A DNA stretch of 24,387 nucleotides from a virus, in the IMG/VR virus record IMGVR_UViG_3300013103_000060, positions 1 through 24,387 of that record. The stretch is one strand, 5' to 3'. Below are positions 6,294 through 22,183 of this stretch, piece after piece; position 1 is the first letter of the stretch, and every line of letters starts with the position of its first letter. A program made the position numbers and the translations under genes. The notes below the pieces were generated by a model. That model was not told the origin of the DNA and ran no database searches. It saw only the letters and a program-made list of their open reading frames with translations.

Positions 6294-6622
6294 TATATAA
6301 CTCTTACAAAAGCTTTTAAAATTCCTTGGGTTTTAATAATTTCAACAACAAGCCAGATGTTATCTATAATATCATTTTTCTTGATCTCAGCATCTTCTGA
6401 GTTAATAAAAATTGCTGTTTCAGCAATTTTTATTAAGTTTGGAAAAAGGCGTAAGTCTTTTTCTGTAATAGAAGCAGGAACAATAGTTATTGATATTATT
6501 GTCTCTGTTTTTGTTTTATTTCCTGTCTTTAAATTAATAGTTTCACTTGTTAGGAGCTTTAAAGTTCTTTCTTCTCCAAAATCTTGATCAAAAATATTAA
6601 AGTCATCAGTTAGCCAGGTCAT
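6293..6622 (-). CDS. Head closure / head-tail connector-like protein (109 aa)
   Basis: The small beta-rich protein is placed between capsid-side genes and the gp10-like protein, where the head-completion 'stopper' normally occurs. It contains short strands (TIISITIVPASITEKDLRLF and NIWLVVEIIK) and a polar loop, consistent with the small beta-barrel fold of head-closure proteins. No motif allows a firm assignment. The start overlaps the upstream kinase gene's stop (ATGA at 6619-6622). Function is inferred from order and size only. Confidence 0.5.
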   Translation of the reverse strand: MTWLTDDFNIFDQDFGEERTLKLLTSETINLKTGNKTKTETIISITIVPASITEKDLRLFPNLIKIAETAIFINSEDAEIKKNDIIDNIWLVVEIIKTQGILKAFVRVI

Positions 6623-7224
6623 TTTTTAATCCTGTCTGATTCTATAATTTCTAAATATTCAAGAATCCTTGAATATTTAAAATTTACTGATATATTTAAA
6701 ACGTGCCTGCTGGGGTTCTTTTGGTTTTCTATAAATTCTTTATAAAAAAAGTCCAAGTCTTTAAGATAATCTAGTTTTATATTTTGTTCACAAATTCTTC
6801 CTCTTGACTTAATTCTTTTGAGGCATATTTTAGGTTCTGTCATTATATAAAAATAGATTGGTTTTGGTAAAGACACCTCATATTTATTTGATATAATTTT
6901 GAGCATTTCAAAACGTTTAGTATCTAAAAAACCTTGTTTGTGTAGGGTTTGAGTAAAAACCCTAGTTAAACCAAAATCTGTCAGAATATTATCTTTTTTG
7001 CTTTCTTGAAGCCCCTGATAATAAGCATCTTCCATGAAGACCTGTAAATGCATACCCCATTTTTCAGGTTCTTTATAGTATAAATCTAGTAAGGGGTTAG
7101 TTTCAACAGGTTCATCAAGAATAAAATAATCAGGTCTTTCTTTTTTTAGAAAATTTAGTAATGTACTTTTTCCTGAACCAATATTACCTATTATTCTTAT
7201 TATATTAGGCTGTTTGAAATGCAT
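6619..7224 (-). CDS. Deoxynucleoside kinase-like P-loop kinase
   Basis: This protein of about 201 residues resembles deoxynucleoside kinases, which phosphorylate salvaged deoxynucleosides and feed dNTP pools. Visible features are a Walker A loop GNIGSGKST at residues 13-21 of the chosen start, the E of LDEP near 38, and an Arg-rich lid RIKSRGR with a following Y-L as in the family. The usual DRS/ERS motif reads D-F-G here, losing the Arg at its standard place; an Arg follows four residues later. Three ATGs are possible (7254, 7230, 7224). AAGG at 7237-7234 is best spaced for 7224, and 7254 would overlap the upstream gene by 50 nt. A metabolic gene inside the neck/capsid operon is out of place, so it may be a moron-like insertion. 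Confidence 0.75.
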   Translation of the reverse strand: MHFKQPNIIRIIGNIGSGKSTLLNFLKKERPDYFILDEPVETNPLLDLYYKEPEKWGMHLQVFMEDAYYQGLQESKKDNILTDFGLTRVFTQTLHKQGFLDTKRFEMLKIISNKYEVSLPKPIYFYIMTEPKICLKRIKSRGRICEQNIKLDYLKDLDFFYKEFIENQKNPSRHVLNISVNFKYSRILEYLEIIESDRIKK

Positions 7225-7555
7225 ATACATATACCTTATCCACAACGCTTGCATCTATATATAGATAACCATCATCTTGATTATATATTGACTTAGGGAA
7301 ATACCCTTTAATCACTACTTGATTAGTTGCTGAGCCATCTGCTAGGGTAAAAGAAAGATCAGCTATTTCTAAGTTATCAATATCACTTGTTGAAATAGTT
7401 ACTATATTTACCCCAGCCTCAATATTTCTAAAACTTAACAGGGTTTTGCCATCATTCTTTACTTTTAGCCCATCCGCAGGGATTAATGTGTCAACTATAG
7501 TAGTCCCTAAAGCCCCCCTACTAAGTACATTTACATCAATTTCTGTTCTTGCCAT
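7205..7555 (-). CDS. Small beta-rich virion-type protein, function unknown (116 aa)
   Basis: The 116-residue protein (MARTEIDVNVLSRGALGTTI at the N-terminus) is rich in Val/Ile/Asp/Gly and looks entirely beta-stranded. It has no charged coiled parts and no signal peptide. It follows a 69-codon ORF, to which it is joined by a TAATG overlap at 7557-7553, and precedes the kinase. Position between the major capsid and the neck genes and the beta-rich composition suggest a capsid-decorating or connector protein. No family was recognised. Confidence 0.6.
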   Translation of the reverse strand: MARTEIDVNVLSRGALGTTIVDTLIPADGLKVKNDGKTLLSFRNIEAGVNIVTISTSDIDNLEIADLSFTLADGSATNQVVIKGYFPKSIYNQDDGYLYIDASVVDKVYVYAFQTA

Positions 7556-9701: not shown

Positions 9702-10085
9702 TTATCCCCTTATTTCTTCCATAATATCTTCAATACCTTGATTATTTTCTTGAACAGTTCCTTGACTGCTTTTAATTATATTATTTACAGTACTTTCAAG
9801 AATCCCCTTTCTATCTTTAATTAATGCATCAATTGCTTTTTCATCTGCTGCATTTGATAGTTGTTCTTTAAAAAGTTCAGTTATTGCTTTTTCAGGCATC
9901 TTAGATTCTTGTAATTTTCTAATTACCAAGTTATTCTGTTCTAATTTTCGAACTTCTTCGCGCGCTTCCTCTAAGATTCTCTTAGATTCTAATCTTTCTT
10001 TTTCTAAGCTTTCGGTTAGATTTTTAATTTGTTTATCCTGCTTTTCTAAGCTTTCTTGTATTTCTTTAACTTCTGTCTCATTCAT
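9702..10085 (-). CDS. Nested scaffold protein from internal start (127 aa, predicted)
   Basis: Within the protease-scaffold gene, ATG at 10085 (Met166) lies exactly where the protease domain ends and the coiled coil begins. It is preceded by AGAGGA with a 7-base spacer, a better ribosome binding site than many genes in this window have. Initiation here would give a free scaffold protein of 127 aa, in the manner of lambda C/Nu3. The site and spacing are visible; its use is inferred. Confidence 0.55.
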   Translation of the reverse strand: MNETEVKEIQESLEKQDKQIKNLTESLEKERLESKRILEEAREEVRKLEQNNLVIRKLQESKMPEKAITELFKEQLSNAADEKAIDALIKDRKGILESTVNNIIKSSQGTVQENNQGIEDIMEEIRG

Positions 10086-11009: not shown

Positions 11010-13343
<2,334 letters not shown>

Positions 13344-14564: not shown

Positions 14565-14996
14565 TTAACCATTTCCACATAGCTTCTCCCTTAAATATTT
14601 TTTTATGTTTGTTGAGCTGTTATTATCTCGCTTTAGAAAACAAATACGAATATCTTTGAATTCACCGAAATCCTCTTTTACATGGTCAGAGCCTAAAACC
14701 CAGATTTTAGGTTTTAATTGTCTTACTAATTCCCTAGCATCTTCAGCTCTTAGAGGAATTACTACAGATACAGCTTTTAAATTCTCTAATAACTCAGCCC
14801 GCATAGTATAAGACAAAATAGGCTCAAAACCTTTTAATTTTTTCACCGAATTTAAAGTATTTAATCCTACTATAACAGGTTTTCCAAAACTTGTGGCATA
14901 ATTTAATAATTTTAAATGCCCTAAATGTAGTAAGTCAAAACAGCCAGATACAAAAGTAAAACCTCCAGCAAATTCAGGTAATTTTTGTTTTAACAT
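14565..14996 (-). CDS. Nucleotidyltransferase of the cytidylyltransferase/RfaE-C type (143 aa)
   Basis: The protein has the full layout of the small HxGH nucleotidyltransferases: GCFDLLHLGHLKLL at 18-31 with the HLGH signature, a Rossmann-like strand VIVGLNTLNSVKKLKG, and an SSTNIKK segment (128-134) matching the ISSTxI end motif. Relatives transfer CMP or AMP to glycerol-3-phosphate, heptose-1-phosphate, FMN or pantetheine phosphate. It most resembles RfaE-C/GCT-type enzymes, but the substrate cannot be told by eye. It is wedged between large terminase and portal in a coupled operon, so it is expressed with virion genes. This is an unusual place for a metabolic enzyme. It might modify the host surface, a cofactor or a virion component; that is inference. 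Confidence 0.8.
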   Translation of the reverse strand: MLKQKLPEFAGGFTFVSGCFDLLHLGHLKLLNYATSFGKPVIVGLNTLNSVKKLKGFEPILSYTMRAELLENLKAVSVVIPLRAEDARELVRQLKPKIWVLGSDHVKEDFGEFKDIRICFLKRDNNSSTNIKKYLREKLCGNG

Positions 14997-15005
14997 TCTT
15001 AATCC

Positions 15006-16529
15006 TTAAATAAATTTTGCTTGATCTTGAATCTCATAAGCCTGCTGATTTGGAATAGAGGCGGCAATTTCTGCATAAGTAAGAGCATGGCAAAAATGGT
15101 CAGCGTCCGTCTCAGTATAATATGCTTCAACTAAACCCCTTACAACTCTATAACAACGCACTAGGGCTTTTAAATGGCTTTTTAATTCTTGCAAATGTTC
15201 ACAATTGCTTGATACTAGTATTCTATTTTGATTAAATCTTGTAAAAACCCTATCAAGAAACTCAGTTCTATTTGCTGCAACCTTGTGACTATCCTCATCT
15301 ATATTTATTGTTTTATCACTTCTTGTATAATAACAATAATAACCTGCTTGCCAATCTTTTACAAGTTCTTTTGATCTTGAAGTTTCTGGTTGTGCATCTA
15401 TAACATAAGCCGAAGGCTTATAAGTCTGTATTAGTAAGGGTAATTCCTGCCAAGTTGCTCTAAAAGTTTGTTCAACAATTAAACCACAATCTGTATTTTT
15501 GCAAAGTACAACATAATGGGGACTAGATATAGAAACATCTATGCCCATAACAAAATTTCCATCCATTTCTACAACATCTACACAACTGTCAAATAATTCC
15601 GATGTTAATCTTGAACCTTTCGCCTCATAAGGCAGACCTAGTTTGGAATTATAAAATACTTGCAACAGGGCTTCATCACCTTGTGCTAGTTGCCAGTTTT
15701 GCTGTATATTTTTGGCAGTCATAGTTGGAGAATACAATTGACTTAGATGATCTCCCACTAAGCCATTGCCTTTTTGTACTAATTGCCATTCTCCTTTTGC
15801 CAGCATATTCAATTTTTGATTATGATTCCATTGCTTTTTGCATTTTTCACAATAGAAAAACCCTTGTTCAAGGTCAAGATTAGTTTCTAAATCTAATGTC
15901 TGGGAATGTCTACAAGCTATACATTTTAAAAAATATTTATATTGATCTCTTACTTTATATTCCTTAAAAATTCCTGTGTCTGGAAGTCTAGGAGTAGAAA
16001 GACTAAATTCCTGTGTATTTAATGACCCTGTTAATCTTTCACGAGCAAGCGCAACCATCTCTTGTTGCATATCATCTCGCTCATCAAGAATTAGGAATCT
16101 CACAGGGATTTCTTTTAGTTTTTCTCTACTTCCTGCACCTCGTAAATATAGAGCTGTTCCTCTTAATACTTTCAAATGCACATTATCTACATTAGCCTCA
16201 TCTGCAAGAGCTGAGCTTTTAATTATTGTATTGAATCTTGCTTGACTAAAGTCACTAATTGCCCCATCTCGGGGCAGTATATATAAAGAAGGGAAGCCAT
16301 TCAGAAGTTTTACAATTACAATATTTAACATTGCCTGGGTAAAACCTAATTGACTACCTTTACAAATTAGATGATTTTCTTTGTTGCTTGTAAGCACTCT
16401 TTTTAGATATGCATAAGCACCTTGATAAGATAAACCTTGGCTCTTTTTAGCAAAGTCAATGGCATCTTTATATATTATTTTCTTAACTTTTGGCTTTTGA
16501 TCTTGAAGATATGAGGATAAAAACCTCAT
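15006..16529 (-). CDS. Terminase large subunit (GpA-like)
   Basis: This motor-nuclease packages DNA into the prohead. Numbering from the longest frame (ATG 16565): a Walker-A-like CKGSQLGFTQ at 68-77, a Walker B LILDERDD at 158-165, a four-Cys zinc knuckle (C215, C218, C239, C242) as in GpA-type terminases, and nuclease acidic residues in MGIDVS (D343) and VIDAQPE (D390), with a third in TDADHFCHAL near the end. The ATG at 16529 is preferred over 16565: it forms an ATGA overlap with the stop of the preceding micro-ORF, and the 12 extra residues would merely be that ORF's tail read in another frame. Confidence 0.88.
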   Translation of the reverse strand: MRFLSSYLQDQKPKVKKIIYKDAIDFAKKSQGLSYQGAYAYLKRVLTSNKENHLICKGSQLGFTQAMLNIVIVKLLNGFPSLYILPRDGAISDFSQARFNTIIKSSALADEANVDNVHLKVLRGTALYLRGAGSREKLKEIPVRFLILDERDDMQQEMVALARERLTGSLNTQEFSLSTPRLPDTGIFKEYKVRDQYKYFLKCIACRHSQTLDLETNLDLEQGFFYCEKCKKQWNHNQKLNMLAKGEWQLVQKGNGLVGDHLSQLYSPTMTAKNIQQNWQLAQGDEALLQVFYNSKLGLPYEAKGSRLTSELFDSCVDVVEMDGNFVMGIDVSISSPHYVVLCKNTDCGLIVEQTFRATWQELPLLIQTYKPSAYVIDAQPETSRSKELVKDWQAGYYCYYTRSDKTINIDEDSHKVAANRTEFLDRVFTRFNQNRILVSSNCEHLQELKSHLKALVRCYRVVRGLVEAYYTETDADHFCHALTYAEIAASIPNQQAYEIQDQAKFI

Positions 16530-16696
16530 ATCTTTTCTGCCTTTTTCCCTGTTAATTCTTGCCATCTATGAATTATCACATCACAATAATTTTCATCTTT
16601 TTCTATCATTCTGCAATTTCTCTTTAATTCTTCATGTCTTTTAGCATTTTGAGGATAGGGCTTTATTTTTTTGATATCCATTTCTATTATTTTCAT
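16526..16696 (-). pseudogene. Internally deleted ParB/DNA-methyltransferase remnant, still an open 56-aa frame
   Basis: A 56-codon ORF begins MKIIEMDIKKIKPYPQNAKR, which matches the start of phage ParB-like-domain/adenine- or cytosine-methyltransferase fusions. It ends CRMIEKDENYCDVIIHRW followed by QELTGKKAEKI, which matches the very end of the methyltransferase domain of the same proteins. The whole interior, normally some 350 residues with the AdoMet and DPPY motifs, is missing, yet the frame is intact. Start and stop both overlap neighbours by ATGA (16693-16696 and 16526-16529), so it links the preceding small gene to the large terminase. It cannot methylate DNA. Being kept in frame suggests either recent deletion or a role as a translational relay. 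In many phages this gene lies next to the terminase, supporting the origin. Confidence 0.8.
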
Positions 16697-16881
16697 GCTT
16701 TTACCTCTGCCAGTATTCCTGTTTGACCTTTTTCCATGGTGCCAAGTCTTTCTAATATTATCTCTTCAGGTAAACAAACTATTTCTTTAGAAACAAAGAA
16801 TCTTGCTTGATCCTTAGAATTAGCAATCACAAGAAAATTTATTTCTTTAATTTGTGTTTGATACAGAAATGTTTTGCCCAT
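16693..16881 (-). CDS. Unknown small protein between terminase subunits (62 aa)
   Basis: A 62-residue ORF overlaps the end of the small terminase gene by 35 nt and hands over to the methyltransferase remnant by ATGA. The core IKEINFLVIANSKDQARFFV looks like a strand followed by a helix, as in small alpha/beta proteins. GAGG lies immediately before the ATG, perhaps too close, so initiation may depend on coupling. No function was recognised. Confidence 0.55.
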   Translation of the reverse strand: MGKTFLYQTQIKEINFLVIANSKDQARFFVSKEIVCLPEEIILERLGTMEKGQTGILAEVKA

Positions 16882-17302
16882 TCCTCAGCTCGCTTTCTCT
16901 TTTTAGTTCTTGTAATAATTGTTTCACTAAGACTTCTGGGGCATCTGGCATTATTGCCCTATAAATTTGTGCTCCCCGTAGAGCATCTTTTACTATATTT
17001 GATATTTCCGCAAAGTCTTCATTAATAACTTTTTGTAATTTTTTTCTGCAAATTGAGGCTACCATAAGACTAATATCAAAATAAGCCTCTGCCCCAGAAA
17101 CTATTTTTTTCTCAAAACGTAAGACAACTTGGTTTTCCGCCTCTTTAATTTTAAGACTTTTCTGAACTGCCCAATTATTTTTTTTTGCCCAGTGTTTTAC
17201 TGTAGCAACACCAATATTTAACTGTTTTGCTATTTTATATGTTGCCATACCATTAAGCCAGAGGTCAAAAGCCTCTTTCTGCACTTCAGGAGAGTGTGCC
17301 AT
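16847..17302 (-). CDS. Terminase small subunit (151 aa)
   Basis: The protein would recognise the packaging site and recruit the large subunit. The N-terminus holds a helix-turn-helix (ATYKIAKQLNIGVATVKHWA at 20-39, with KKNNW after it), as in many small terminases. The middle is helical (EKKIVSGAEAYFDISLMVAS) and the C-terminus is Leu/Glu-rich. Position immediately before the large subunit supports the role. A near-ideal ribosome binding site (AGGGAGG) precedes the ATG by about ten bases. The upstream spacer holds two arrays of a 10-bp repeat that could be its binding site. Confidence 0.78.
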   Translation of the reverse strand: MAHSPEVQKEAFDLWLNGMATYKIAKQLNIGVATVKHWAKKNNWAVQKSLKIKEAENQVVLRFEKKIVSGAEAYFDISLMVASICRKKLQKVINEDFAEISNIVKDALRGAQIYRAIMPDAPEVLVKQLLQELKRESELRNGQNISVSNTN

Positions 17303-17388
17303 AATATTTTAAACCTCCCTAAATAAACTCAATCTTTATTTTATAGTCTATCTTTTAAAATTAAAAAAAGCAAAGGTTTAAAAACAAA

Positions 17389-17517
17389 ACTAGCTAAAAT
17401 TAGCTAAAATTAGCTAAAATTGGCTATTTTTGTTAATATATTTTAATAAAAACACTGTCTTTTTTTTATCCTCTGCTAGTTTTAGCTAATTTTAGCTAGT
17501 TTTAGCTAAAATTAGCT
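17389..17517. repeat. Two opposed arrays of the 10-bp repeat TAGCTAAAAT in the dnaN-terS spacer
   Basis: The left array has three perfect tandem copies of TAGCTAAAAT (17391-17420) and a degenerate fourth to 17430. The right array (17475-17517) has the complement in the same 10-bp period, ending in the palindrome TTTTAGCTAAAA. The 30 bases of the left array match the reverse complement of 17479-17508 at 28 positions, so DNA or RNA could fold into a long hairpin with a loop of about 58 nt. The 10-bp period puts every copy on one face of the helix, as in multi-site protein binding. The location next to the small terminase suggests a packaging (pac/cos) or regulatory site. No gene is seen in 17303-17532. 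Confidence 0.85.
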
Positions 17518-17532
17518 CCTTTATTCTTTTAC

Positions 17533-18636
17533 TTATTTTTTAATTGGTAGGACTATATATTTATAGCCCTCCTCTGAAATGATCATCGCAGAATGTCCAT
17601 CTCTAACTTGTAGTCTTAGTTCATGCCCTGTTAGATATTTTAATAATTCTAGCAGGAAATCAGAATTAAATATTATGCTGAAAGGTTCTCCATTGAACCA
17701 TATTTTTTTTGTTATTTCTCCTAATAAACCAATAAACTTAATTTCGTTCTTTGAAAAAGCTAATGTTAGAGATATTGTTTCAAAGTCTTGCTCACTCTTC
17801 TTTAGTTTCCTACAGACACGTTTAATTGCCAATGTAAAATCTTTTCTATTAATTTTAGCCCAGTAGGGTAATTCGCTAGGTATTACCTTTTGATATGGAG
17901 GAAATTTAGCATCTGATAATCTGGTTGAGAGAATAAATTCCTTAGTACAAAATAGAAGATGTCTGTCTAAAAAGCTTAACATAACTGTTTCAGGGGTTGT
18001 TGCACTTAAAATAAGATTAATTTGTTTTAAGGCCTGAGCTAGAACAGTTAATTGCTTATTAATAACCTCGCCAATAGCTTTATATGGTCGGTCAAATATT
18101 GCAAGTCTTTTACCATCAGTAGCAACAAAACGAATCTTATCTTCTAAAATATCAACTAGTACATTATCTAAATCATAACGAGTTTTTTTATTAGTTGTAA
18201 CAAACAAAGTTTTTTTAATCAGTTTCTTAAAATCATCACCTAACATTTCAATATCATATTTATCTTCAAATTGAGGAATTTTTGGAAATTCTTTGGGATC
18301 TGCTCCTTGTATAAGAATTTTTCCATCCTCAATAATAAGGGCTGCATTGAAGCCCTGTTGGTCGATAAGTATTTCTTCATCAGGGGTCTCTTTAACCGCG
18401 CTAAAGAAACTTAATGCATTTAATACAAGTTCGCCAGGTTCTATAATTTCCAGCTCATTAGATACTAAGGTATAAGCTATAGTTGTTTTTAAATCAGTAG
18501 CTTTTAAAATTAATTCCTTATCTATAGTGCTAAGATGTACACTTTCTAGAAAGGAAAGCCCAGAGCTTTTATGTGCTATTGCCTTGATTGATTTTAAGGC
18601 AAAATTTAGGGCATTCTTTTTTATTCTCAATTTCAT
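17533..18636 (-). CDS. dnaN: DNA polymerase III beta sliding clamp homologue (367 aa)
   Basis: This is a bacterial-type beta clamp, the ring that tethers DNA polymerase to its template. Three-domain length and several landmarks agree: FVATDGKRLAIF in the middle domain, LSDAKFPPYQKVIP in the linker before the third domain, FNSDFLLELLKYL, and the C-terminal YKYIVLPIKK that corresponds to the conserved VxPxR-like end. The ATG at 18636 is chosen over an upstream in-frame ATG at 18663, because AAGGGG lies nine bases before it and it overlaps the stop of the two-TM ORF as TAATG. A phage copy of dnaN may divert or replace the host clamp. It is the last gene of the operon begun by the ring nuclease. 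Confidence 0.92.
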   Translation of the reverse strand: MKLRIKKNALNFALKSIKAIAHKSSGLSFLESVHLSTIDKELILKATDLKTTIAYTLVSNELEIIEPGELVLNALSFFSAVKETPDEEILIDQQGFNAALIIEDGKILIQGADPKEFPKIPQFEDKYDIEMLGDDFKKLIKKTLFVTTNKKTRYDLDNVLVDILEDKIRFVATDGKRLAIFDRPYKAIGEVINKQLTVLAQALKQINLILSATTPETVMLSFLDRHLLFCTKEFILSTRLSDAKFPPYQKVIPSELPYWAKINRKDFTLAIKRVCRKLKKSEQDFETISLTLAFSKNEIKFIGLLGEITKKIWFNGEPFSIIFNSDFLLELLKYLTGHELRLQVRDGHSAMIISEEGYKYIVLPIKK

Positions 18637-18803
18637 TAAAATATTCCCCTTACAAGAAAACATAAAAAAATTATTATTAAGTCAACACTAAACATAGTAG
18701 CTACAATAGCCACGGATTCTTCAAAACCCTCTTTTCTAGCTTCTTTATCCTCGGAGAGCCAGATTATTAAGACAAAAAGTAAAGCCACTGTCCCTAAAGT
18801 CAT
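18636..18803 (-). CDS. Two-transmembrane micro-protein, function unknown (55 aa)
   Basis: The 55-codon ORF is preceded by AAGGGG at six bases and ends in a TAATG overlap with the clamp gene, so it is very likely translated. It has two hydrophobic segments (TLGTVALLFVLIIWL at 2-16 and SVDLIIIFLCFLV at about 39-51), separated by a charged loop SEDKEARKEGFEE. The size and two-helix layout recall small holins or membrane effectors, but the position inside an early nuclease/clamp operon is not that of a lysis gene. No family was recognised. Confidence 0.65.
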   Translation of the reverse strand: MTLGTVALLFVLIIWLSEDKEARKEGFEESVAIVATMFSVDLIIIFLCFLVRGIF

Positions 18804-18822: not shown

Positions 18823-19647
18823 TTATTTTGTTAAAATACTCTCTCCTGCTCGGAGAGCCAGAAAACCCTTGCATCCTTCTTGATAATCACACCAGCCACA
18901 CAAAGGGCTTTTCTTTGCTGGAAAGCTTTTTGAAGATCTAATAATTTGTATTTCTTCTTTGATTTTTTCCCAGACCTCTTGAGCCTTTTTTCTTTTGCAA
19001 AACCATAGGGGGGAGTTCCTCTTTTCAGATACAAATATATTCTGGCAATCTATTTCTTGTATCCGTGGATATTTTGCAAAGAAATATATCGCATAACTGT
19101 TCAATTGTTTTCGCCCCGAGCGATATTTCCCTGTTTTCCAGTCCCTTAATGAACAGGAAACTACTGCTTTATTAAGGTCAAGGAATAAATCTTGTTCCTT
19201 ATCTTCCTTATTTATCTTTTTTATAATCTCTTTTTTTGAGATTTCTAGTTGAACCAGGTCAACAAAACCCCTAAAAAGAGCATTTGGGCTATCAAATTCG
19301 CAAGGTTCACAACTTACTGTTAATCCAAATCCTAACTCTTTTTTCTCGATCAAGGCTCTATTATCCTTGATTTTTAGATCAAAAGTACTAAAAGAACTTA
19401 AGTCCTGAATTGTTCCATTAGTTCTTTTTGCTTTCTTCAAAATTTTCTTTGCATATTCAAGGGCTTCAAAAAATTCATGGTTCTCATCAACTTCCTTTGA
19501 GAGTTCAATAAGCTTATGAATTTTTTTTCCTCTTTCAGCTTCAGGCTTAGCTATTTTAACCTGAAGCTTATCAATATATCTCTTTTTATATTTTAATGGG
19601 CATTGGGCATAACACCCAATGCTTGAAAAAGATTCTGTTCTAATCAT
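18823..19647 (-). CDS. Cas4/RecB-like PD-(D/E)XK nuclease with Fe-S cysteines (274 aa)
   Basis: Probably a DNA exonuclease for recombination, end processing or host/defence interference. Motifs in order: CPLKYKKRYI with C16, RGKKIH with H44, FRGFVD with D130, LRDWKTG with D169 and K171, and QLNSY (Q181, Y185), the standard RecB/Cas4 active site. The C-terminal CGWCDYQEGC provides C250, C253 and C259. With C16 this makes the four cysteines of a 4Fe-4S cluster as in Cas4 and AddB. A charged insertion at 135-160 is variable. Start and ring nuclease stop overlap as ATGA (19644-19647), so both are made together. Confidence 0.88.
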   Translation of the reverse strand: MIRTESFSSIGCYAQCPLKYKKRYIDKLQVKIAKPEAERGKKIHKLIELSKEVDENHEFFEALEYAKKILKKAKRTNGTIQDLSSFSTFDLKIKDNRALIEKKELGFGLTVSCEPCEFDSPNALFRGFVDLVQLEISKKEIIKKINKEDKEQDLFLDLNKAVVSCSLRDWKTGKYRSGRKQLNSYAIYFFAKYPRIQEIDCQNIFVSEKRNSPLWFCKRKKAQEVWEKIKEEIQIIRSSKSFPAKKSPLCGWCDYQEGCKGFLALRAGESILTK

Positions 19648-20240
19648 ATTATAATACCATTTTTTGGGAAAATGGCGTTAGGATCATAGGATTTGTATCT
19701 TATGTCCTTATGGCTAATTCCTTCAAAATCTTTGAAAAAACATGAATTAATCACAAAGAGTATTTCAAAATCTTTGAAATTAAAATCTTTAATATCCTTT
19801 TTTCTGCAACAGATGTATGCATCTTTATATAATTTTGCATATTTAAATGCATACATCTTATTGTCAGAAACTACCAAAACTTTTTTATTTATCTTTACTG
19901 GCATTATTTTTATATTTCTAACGTGCCAGTATTCAATAGTTGAATTTTCTGGTAATTCAACTGTTCCTTCTGCAAGTCTTGCTCCTCTGTATTGAGCAAT
20001 AACTGCCTCATCTTCTTCTTTAAGAGCTACAGAAATTCTGTTACTTTCTACTTGCAAGCCTAATTCACTTGCAATAACTGCTGCCATATCAGCGTGACCA
20101 ATTGCTGATATTTTTTCAATCCCTTCTTTTTCTCCTAGAAGTTTGAAAGCTTCTAGTTTTGTTATTTTTTTAAAAGAAAAATTTGCTTCCTGACATTCTG
20201 GAAGCATGTTAATACTAAAAGCGTTTAATAGATATCTCAT
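19644..20240 (-). CDS. AcrIII-1-like viral ring nuclease (DUF1874) with extra C-terminal domain (198 aa)
   Basis: Residues 1-108 are a DUF1874 domain, the family of the viral anti-CRISPR ring nuclease AcrIII-1 that destroys cyclic tetra-adenylate and so silences type III CRISPR effectors. Visible counterparts of residues described for SIRV1 gp29 are N6 and S9 in YLLNAFSINML, catalytic H49 in AIGHADMA, R68 in NRI, Q83 in AQY, and R88 and E91 in RLAEG. Residues 110-198 are not part of the family's usual length of about 110. They look alpha/beta (KKVLVVSDNK, a helix YAFKYAKLY, DAYICC, FEILFVINSCF) and match nothing I recognise. The gene is first in its operon, behind a strong promoter and long leader. 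AAGG lies nine bases before the ATG. Confidence 0.88.
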   Translation of the reverse strand: MRYLLNAFSINMLPECQEANFSFKKITKLEAFKLLGEKEGIEKISAIGHADMAAVIASELGLQVESNRISVALKEEDEAVIAQYRGARLAEGTVELPENSTIEYWHVRNIKIMPVKINKKVLVVSDNKMYAFKYAKLYKDAYICCRKKDIKDFNFKDFEILFVINSCFFKDFEGISHKDIRYKSYDPNAIFPKNGIII

Positions 20241-21632: not shown

Positions 21633-22183
21633 TTTGTCACATAAAAGACACAGCTTTATGTAGGTTGTCACAAAACGCTGTGACAAAAATAAAGAACCAT
21701 TACTTCTTTGTAAACCTTTTAAATTACAAAGCTTAGTGAAGATTAGAAAAAACAACTTTTAAAGCTTGTCACAAAACTGAAATTGACTGTGACAAGGTTA
21801 AGTTATTATTAATAAAGTACTTATATTAATTTGTCACAAAAACGGCTATTCTATAATAATAATTAGAAATTACTAATATTAAAAAAAAAAAATATATAAT
21901 ATAATATATTTCCTTTATACTCTTTTTTTTTTTGTGTTTTTGTGTCAGTTAAATACTAAAACACATAAAAGCGTTTTTTTGTGACAAAAAGATAAAAAAA
22001 TAACATAAGTCTTTATATATCAACAACTTATAAATGTCACAAAATATTTAGCGTTTGTGACAAGTTTAAAATGATAATTTTTAAAACCTTCTATACCCCC
22101 CTAACCTCTAGTCTTTCAACAAGATTTCATTCTTTATATTTTTGTCCCATCAAAATGTGACAAATTTTTTTTTATGTGACAAA
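21633..22183. repeat. Eleven dispersed near-palindromes TTTGTSACAAA: probable origin iterons or operators
   Basis: Copies of an 11-bp odd palindrome (core TGTCACA/TGTGACA) are centred at 21638, 21669, 21682, 21770, 21791, 21835, 21983, 22038, 22059, 22159 and 22178. Several occur as pairs 13, 19 or 21 bp apart, and two copies (21835, 21983) match TTTGTSACAAA perfectly. They fill the gap between the divergent gene sets together with an A/T-only stretch and long A and T runs (21880-21932). No gene is convincing anywhere in 21516-22278. A site-specific DNA-binding protein must use these copies: as replication origin iterons next to the primase gene, as operators of the divergent promoters, or both. 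Confidence 0.85.
21881..21932. other. A/T tract in the middle of the repeat region (possible unwinding element)
   Basis: This 52-bp stretch contains only one or two G/C pairs, with an A12 run (about 21881-21892) and a T11 run (about 21923-21933) flanking alternating AT. It sits between the two halves of the TGTSACA repeat set, where a DNA unwinding element of an origin would be. The interpretation is inference; the base composition is visible. Confidence 0.45.

Follow-up and report, generated by a model that had tools for sequence, protein, structure and literature searches.

Opposed, helically phased TAGCTA arrays on predicted curved DNA before a phage small terminase gene: a plausible packaging or late-operon control site

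The window analyzed here is the whole of a viral record, a 24,387-base fragment of a tailed phage with a GC content of 31% (Table 1). Leftward genes for early functions (a Cys-rich protein, an XRE regulator, an STIV B116-like protein, a RecB-like exonuclease and DnaN) are followed after a gap of 230 bp by leftward genes for TerS, TerL (gpA family), a lambda-type portal, head proteins and the tape measure. Two arrays of a short repeat occupy this dnaN-terS gap (17303-17532), which opens the packaging operon and ranks second largest among the four gaps of at least 50 bp in the leftward gene block. The HTH of the probable small terminase scores 27.8 bits against PF06056 (cut-off 20.3), while PHROG terS profiles match the protein weakly and over the HTH part alone; TerL sits two tiny ORFs downstream. 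An AlphaFold model of TerS made without an alignment reached a pLDDT of 44, too low for use, and a PDB sequence search with the protein gave no reliable match. Scans of IMG/VR with TerS, TerL and capsid returned no close relatives, and the best TerL relative among bacterial genomes (31% identical, in a Planctomycetota MAG) has no array.

Several other features of the genome deserve mention in their own right. A deoxynucleoside kinase (PF01712, 4e-30; 6619-7254) and a cytidylyltransferase-like protein (PF01467, 2e-16; 14565-14996) are encoded amid the head and packaging genes, and a 777-aa head-region protein (11010-13343) contains a long Pro-Lys/Pro-Glu dipeptide repeat that stems from a 6-bp tandem repeat at 12111-12238. 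The STIV B116-like domain (PF08960, 2.5e-14; 19644-20240) belongs to a family that takes its name from an archaeal virus protein and is found here in a tailed-phage genome. The operon for the B116-like protein, the exonuclease and DnaN is preceded on the minus strand by a near-consensus extended promoter, TTGACA-17-TACAAT (11/12; 20485-20457).

Table 1. Positions of the arrays and of the neighboring genes and signals in the window
Feature	Position	Strand	Content or basis
Large terminase (TerL), gpA family	15006-16565	-	phrog_675 1e-67; PF05876 4e-26
Probable small terminase (TerS), 151 aa, N-terminal HTH	16847-17302	-	PF06056; precedes TerL
terS ribosome-binding site GGGAGG	17314-17319	-	sequence
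-10-like TATAAAAT	17338-17345	-	sequence; no good -35
Left array	17386-17426	+	AAAAC, three perfect TAGCTAAAAT, degenerate TGGCTATTTT; period 10 bp
Spacer between arrays	17427-17474		48 bp, AT-rich (sequence)
Right array	17475-17517		three opposed units, one partial, one outer unit left-oriented; period 10 bp
Right-array self-complementary hairpin	17484-17517		15 bp perfect, 4-nt loop
Phage beta sliding clamp (DnaN)	17533-18663	-	profile matches; last gene ahead of arrays

The left array consists of perfect units starting at 17391, 17401 and 17411 and a degenerate one at 17421, just as a sequence-only reading of the window had described, and the AAAAC ahead of them carries the inverted repeat out to 17386. 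That reading had counted four complementary units on the right side, where there are in fact three opposed units, one partial unit and one turned back: on the minus strand the array reads TAGCTAAAAC (17488-17479), TAGCTAAAAT (17498-17489) and TAGCTAAAAC (17508-17499), with a partial GCTAG at 17475, whereas the outermost unit (17503-17512) is TAGCTAAAAT in the orientation of the left array, followed by a partial TAGCT at 17513. Because of this turned-back outer unit, the right array can form a perfect 15-bp hairpin by itself. Counted as TAGCTA-like hexamers, the units form groups of four and five across a spacer of about 47 bp; the arrays themselves are 48 bp apart, where the sequence-only reading gave about 45 bp. 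The near-complete pairing between the two sides was confirmed as well; the exact count is 28 of 29 positions (arms 17386-17414 and 17475-17503), or 31 of 34 over longer arms, rather than 28 of 30. Both arrays keep to one unit per helical turn, which bears out the 10-bp period on which a putative cooperative binding platform had been proposed, and we count that proposal as supported. The site also lies directly upstream of the HTH-bearing small terminase as claimed, 84 bp from the start codon of terS (17302).

The arrays are real and well outside chance. The longest exact period-10 run spans 21 bases, whereas 100 third-order Markov simulations of the window yielded no run longer than 14 at periods of 8-12, and the best 29-nt inverted repeat pairs at 28 of 29 positions, compared with no more than 23 of 29 in 30 simulations and 22 of 29 in the remaining window. 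Phased TAGCTA arrays reached at most two units in 200 simulations, against three here. The 24-kb record holds no second cluster of this kind.

Each unit contains an A-tract or its complement, so that A-tracts recur once per turn. We predicted curvature from sequence using a dinucleotide wedge model with the Bolshoy values, the sign convention being set so that phased A4T4 is curved and T4A4 straight. What is new here is that, on this prediction, no place in the record curves more strongly than the left array (113 degrees over 40 bp), and the right array comes second (98 degrees), ahead of a third-ranking value of 76; in 1000 shuffles of the gap, the observed maximum was never reached. Under the same model the Alt operator of phage TP901-1 lies at the 99.99 percentile and is the curvature peak of its 10-kb stretch, while P1 pac and lambda cosB lie at the 98-99 percentile and are not unusually curved. 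Curvature therefore gives a packaging site no edge over an activator operator.

We tentatively favor, at a confidence that falls short of probable, the reading of the arrays as a pac/cosB-like site, a docking platform for a TerS ring on pre-bent DNA that may also regulate terS. The TerS oligomer would present HTH motifs spaced by roughly one turn of DNA and dock on one array or both, with one 10-bp unit read by each HTH and the curvature of the arrays lowering the cost of wrapping. Such a complex could place TerL for cleavage within or next to the 48-bp spacer, a candidate cleavage or looping region. Since the arrays lie just above the terS promoter region, their occupancy would also shut down terS transcription, an autoregulation of the kind reported for SPP1-type TerS. 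The position adjoining the small terminase gene and the combination of repeated sites with DNA predicted to be bent are both features of a packaging site, and the gene order terS-terL-portal matches that of lambda. It also counts in favor of packaging that the replication origin more plausibly lies elsewhere, at a cluster of TTTGTSACA boxes. Counting against it are the unexceptional wedge-model curvature of P1 pac and lambda cosB and the fact that no close relative of this phage was found.

In outline, phased, bent and opposed arrays fit what has been described for SF6-type TerS, lambda cosB and P1 pac, and each of these systems also departs from the present locus. The SF6/SPP1 TerS ring carries HTHs about one B-DNA turn apart and has been proposed to choose intrinsically bent DNA, and its complex with pac represses its own motor/terminase operon (PMC4737164). 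By description, SPP1/SF6 pac thus resembles the arrays in its bent DNA near terS, its proposed choice by an HTH ring and its control of the terminase operon (PMC4737164); SF6 TerS, however, reads almost no sequence and the boxes matter little, whereas the unit sequence here is strictly repeated. In lambda cosB the R sites are opposed, and an IHF-assisted bend lies between R3 and R2 (PMC4669245). Like the arrays, cosB sets opposed sites (which bind TerS in lambda) and a bend immediately upstream of the small terminase gene (nu1), and the two phages have TerL and portal superfamilies in common. Lambda cosB nevertheless differs in its three dispersed R sites, its IHF-assisted bend and its lack of 10-bp tandem arrays, and lambda has cosN and cosQ; by eye we recognized neither a cosN-like GC-rich dyad nor a cosQ in the gap, and a pac site needs none. 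At the pac site of P1, four hexamers lie to one side of the cut and three to the other (PMC10028697). This site shares with the present locus short hexamers in two groups across a spacer and linkage to the small terminase gene. P1 pac, on the other hand, uses TGATCA/G hexamers with GATC (Dam) sites in place of TAGCTA, spaces them irregularly (7, 12, 15 and 12, 11 bp), lies within pacA, and has an IHF site, a 90-bp spacer and no strong curvature.

The sequence-only reading had proposed a pac/cos or terminase-autoregulation site. Predicted curvature and the SF6/SPP1 parallels (PMC4737164) speak for that proposal, but an operator for a late activator, a competitor that it left out, fits about equally well; packaging is marginally ahead and the two stay close. 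Under this alternative, which we consider possible but doubtful, an Alt/Ltr/RinA-like activator would bind the four direct repeats of the left array and turn on the operon from terS to the tail genes, the right array serving as an upstream second site for looping or cooperativity. In TP901-1, Alt binds to a set of four imperfect direct repeats between -76 and -32, and in phi13 the promoter requires the Ltr repeats at -107 to -42 for its activity (PMC13123087). As at the present locus, some four direct repeats in tandem precede terS in the Alt and Ltr operators, at one per helical turn in Alt, and the Alt repeats, which we located in the TP901-1 sequence with an 11-bp period between alt and terS (L141, 4998-5041), form the curvature maximum of their stretch, as our left array does. 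No site scoring at least 9/12 as a promoter occurs on the minus strand of 17303-17532, while the early operon has a near-consensus one, a pattern in keeping with an activated late promoter. If TATAAAAT served as its -10, the left array would lie at about -57 to -93. A TAGCTA array in another phage (L128, below) has its end some 63 bp upstream of the start expected from a promoter-like site, TTTTCA-17-TATAAT; AT-rich DNA, however, commonly yields promoter-like matches, and the late promoter of the present phage is itself inferred. The Alt and phi13 Ltr operators differ in being one array in a single orientation, with units of 11 bp (Alt) or 18 bp (phi13) and of other sequence, and they contain nothing equivalent to the opposed right array. 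They also adjoin an activator gene, usually of the Ltr/RinA/ArpU superfamily, whereas the neighbor of the arrays is dnaN, and scans of the neighboring genes with Pfam, PHROGs and NCBIfam recognized no protein of this type in the incomplete record.

We then consider how similar arrays are distributed in other phages. The exact pattern TAGCTANNNNTAGCTANNNNTAGCTA was found in 22 stretches of IMG/VR, which include duplicates of one phage, against seven for the control hexamer AAGCTT; the spacer letters differ in about ten TAGCTA loci and in two control loci. In bacterial genomes the pattern was found in 1 of 398. All 22 loci are intergenic, which we reject as a signal: three TAGCTA at 10-bp spacing put TAG stops in all six frames, so the position is trivial. 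Two loci in phages with other terminase families (L120 and L128) have TAGCTA arrays directly before terS-terL, the second of them recovered with a looser pattern than exact TAGCTANNNNTAGCTANNNNTAGCTA. At L120 (the contig of L096), which is podovirus-like, two clusters of five and about seven TAGCTA-like units, some twelve in all, flank a perfect TTGATGTTC-GCTA-GAACATCAA dyad (9889-10063) and are followed by a 234-aa HTH-like protein, a phrog_38 TerL and a P22-type portal. At L128, nine units of the TAGCTAAACA type (2374-2460) precede a T5-like TerS (phrog_3802), with TerL two genes on. These two arrays rank among the most elaborate TAGCTA arrays. The association with terS is nevertheless weak, because such arrays also occur in other phage settings (at the 3' ends of endolysin genes, after a capsid gene and before a tail chaperone), and two of about twenty independent loci is near chance expectation. 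At 39 other TerL loci the upstream 3 kb contained no period-10 array, and in T5-like relatives of the L128 TerS a gene occupies the position that the array would have, with no 10-bp array present. The TerS proteins of the present phage, L120 and L128 appear unrelated, and a shared motif is therefore not what shared recognition would lead one to expect. A more specific form of the packaging reading, in which each HTH of a terminase ring would read one TAGCTA unit on repeat-bent DNA, sequence and shape being encoded together, and in which such wrapping sites would have arisen likewise in these three phages with unrelated terminases, strikes us as unlikely.

An RNA element of the leftward transcript between the dnaN and terS cistrons, whether a terminator, an attenuator or a processing or stability element formed by the 15-bp hairpin or the 28/29-bp stem, is distinctly unlikely. 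Folding does beat that of shuffled sequences on both strands (z of -4.6 to -4.7 on the minus strand and -7.7 on the plus strand), the right-array hairpin comes just after the dnaN stop codon, and a U-rich UUUUGUUUUU comes after the left array on the minus strand. An RNA hairpin had been raised as an alternative in the sequence-only reading as well, and it is weak because no U-run lies 3' of the right-array hairpin on the coding strand: an intrinsic terminator has a GC-containing stem and then a U-run, whereas the minus-strand hairpin is followed by AAAACUAGCAGAGG, with A residues in place of U, and the right hairpin was picked up on the plus strand only. The stems are AU-rich, the long one has a 60-nt loop, Rfam gave no match, and the lack of homologues leaves no covariation to draw on. 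Nor would an RNA hairpin need exact 10-bp phasing or curvature.

That the arrays arose by recent tandem slippage of a 10-mer, with inverted duplication, in AT-rich intergenic sequence and serve no function of their own, with curvature as a by-product of phased A-tracts, is more improbable still. Other hexamers also form perfect 10-mer tandem copies in phage DNA, as the seven control loci attest, and TAGCTA arrays are sporadic in phages and rare in bacterial genomes. Against neutral slippage stand the two oppositely oriented groups; the right-array units diverge from one another yet retain TAGCTA and phase, and the TAGCTA arrays outnumber the control even though they are confined to non-coding DNA. 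Least credible of all are replication-origin iterons: the direct repeats are iteron-like and lie by AT-rich DNA and a sliding-clamp gene, but the primase-polymerase gene is 5 kb away and has its own repeats, and we rejected the arrays as an origin in favor of these.

The repeats in question are TTTGTSACA boxes, with 12 exact copies against 0.42 expected, all in one non-coding stretch (21633-22183) and several of them overlapping palindromes. The gene beside them at the right end matches the HBD domain of NrS-1 polymerase and DUF3987, and NrS-1 polymerase requires an 8-nt template recognition sequence that occurs twice in its genome (PMC7102993). An NrS-1-like primase-polymerase may thus have its origin or an operator in this cluster. 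At the contig end (24200-24387) the reading frame of this protein enters some 21 copies of a 9-bp repeat, AGATAAAGA, Lys/Glu/Asp-rich in translation, and this is probably where assembly stopped.

The original observation of opposed arrays beside the small terminase gene holds, and their reading as a pac or terminase site is plausible but unproven; the arrays are probably a docking site for a packaging protein or a late-gene switch. How small-terminase rings recognize DNA is unsettled in general, and a compact natural site with a near-identical unit per turn and very high predicted curvature would allow sequence and shape to be separated in a binding assay. Should the arrays instead be an activator operator, they would represent a mirror-image operator of a late operon in a phage without a recognized Alt/Ltr-type activator.
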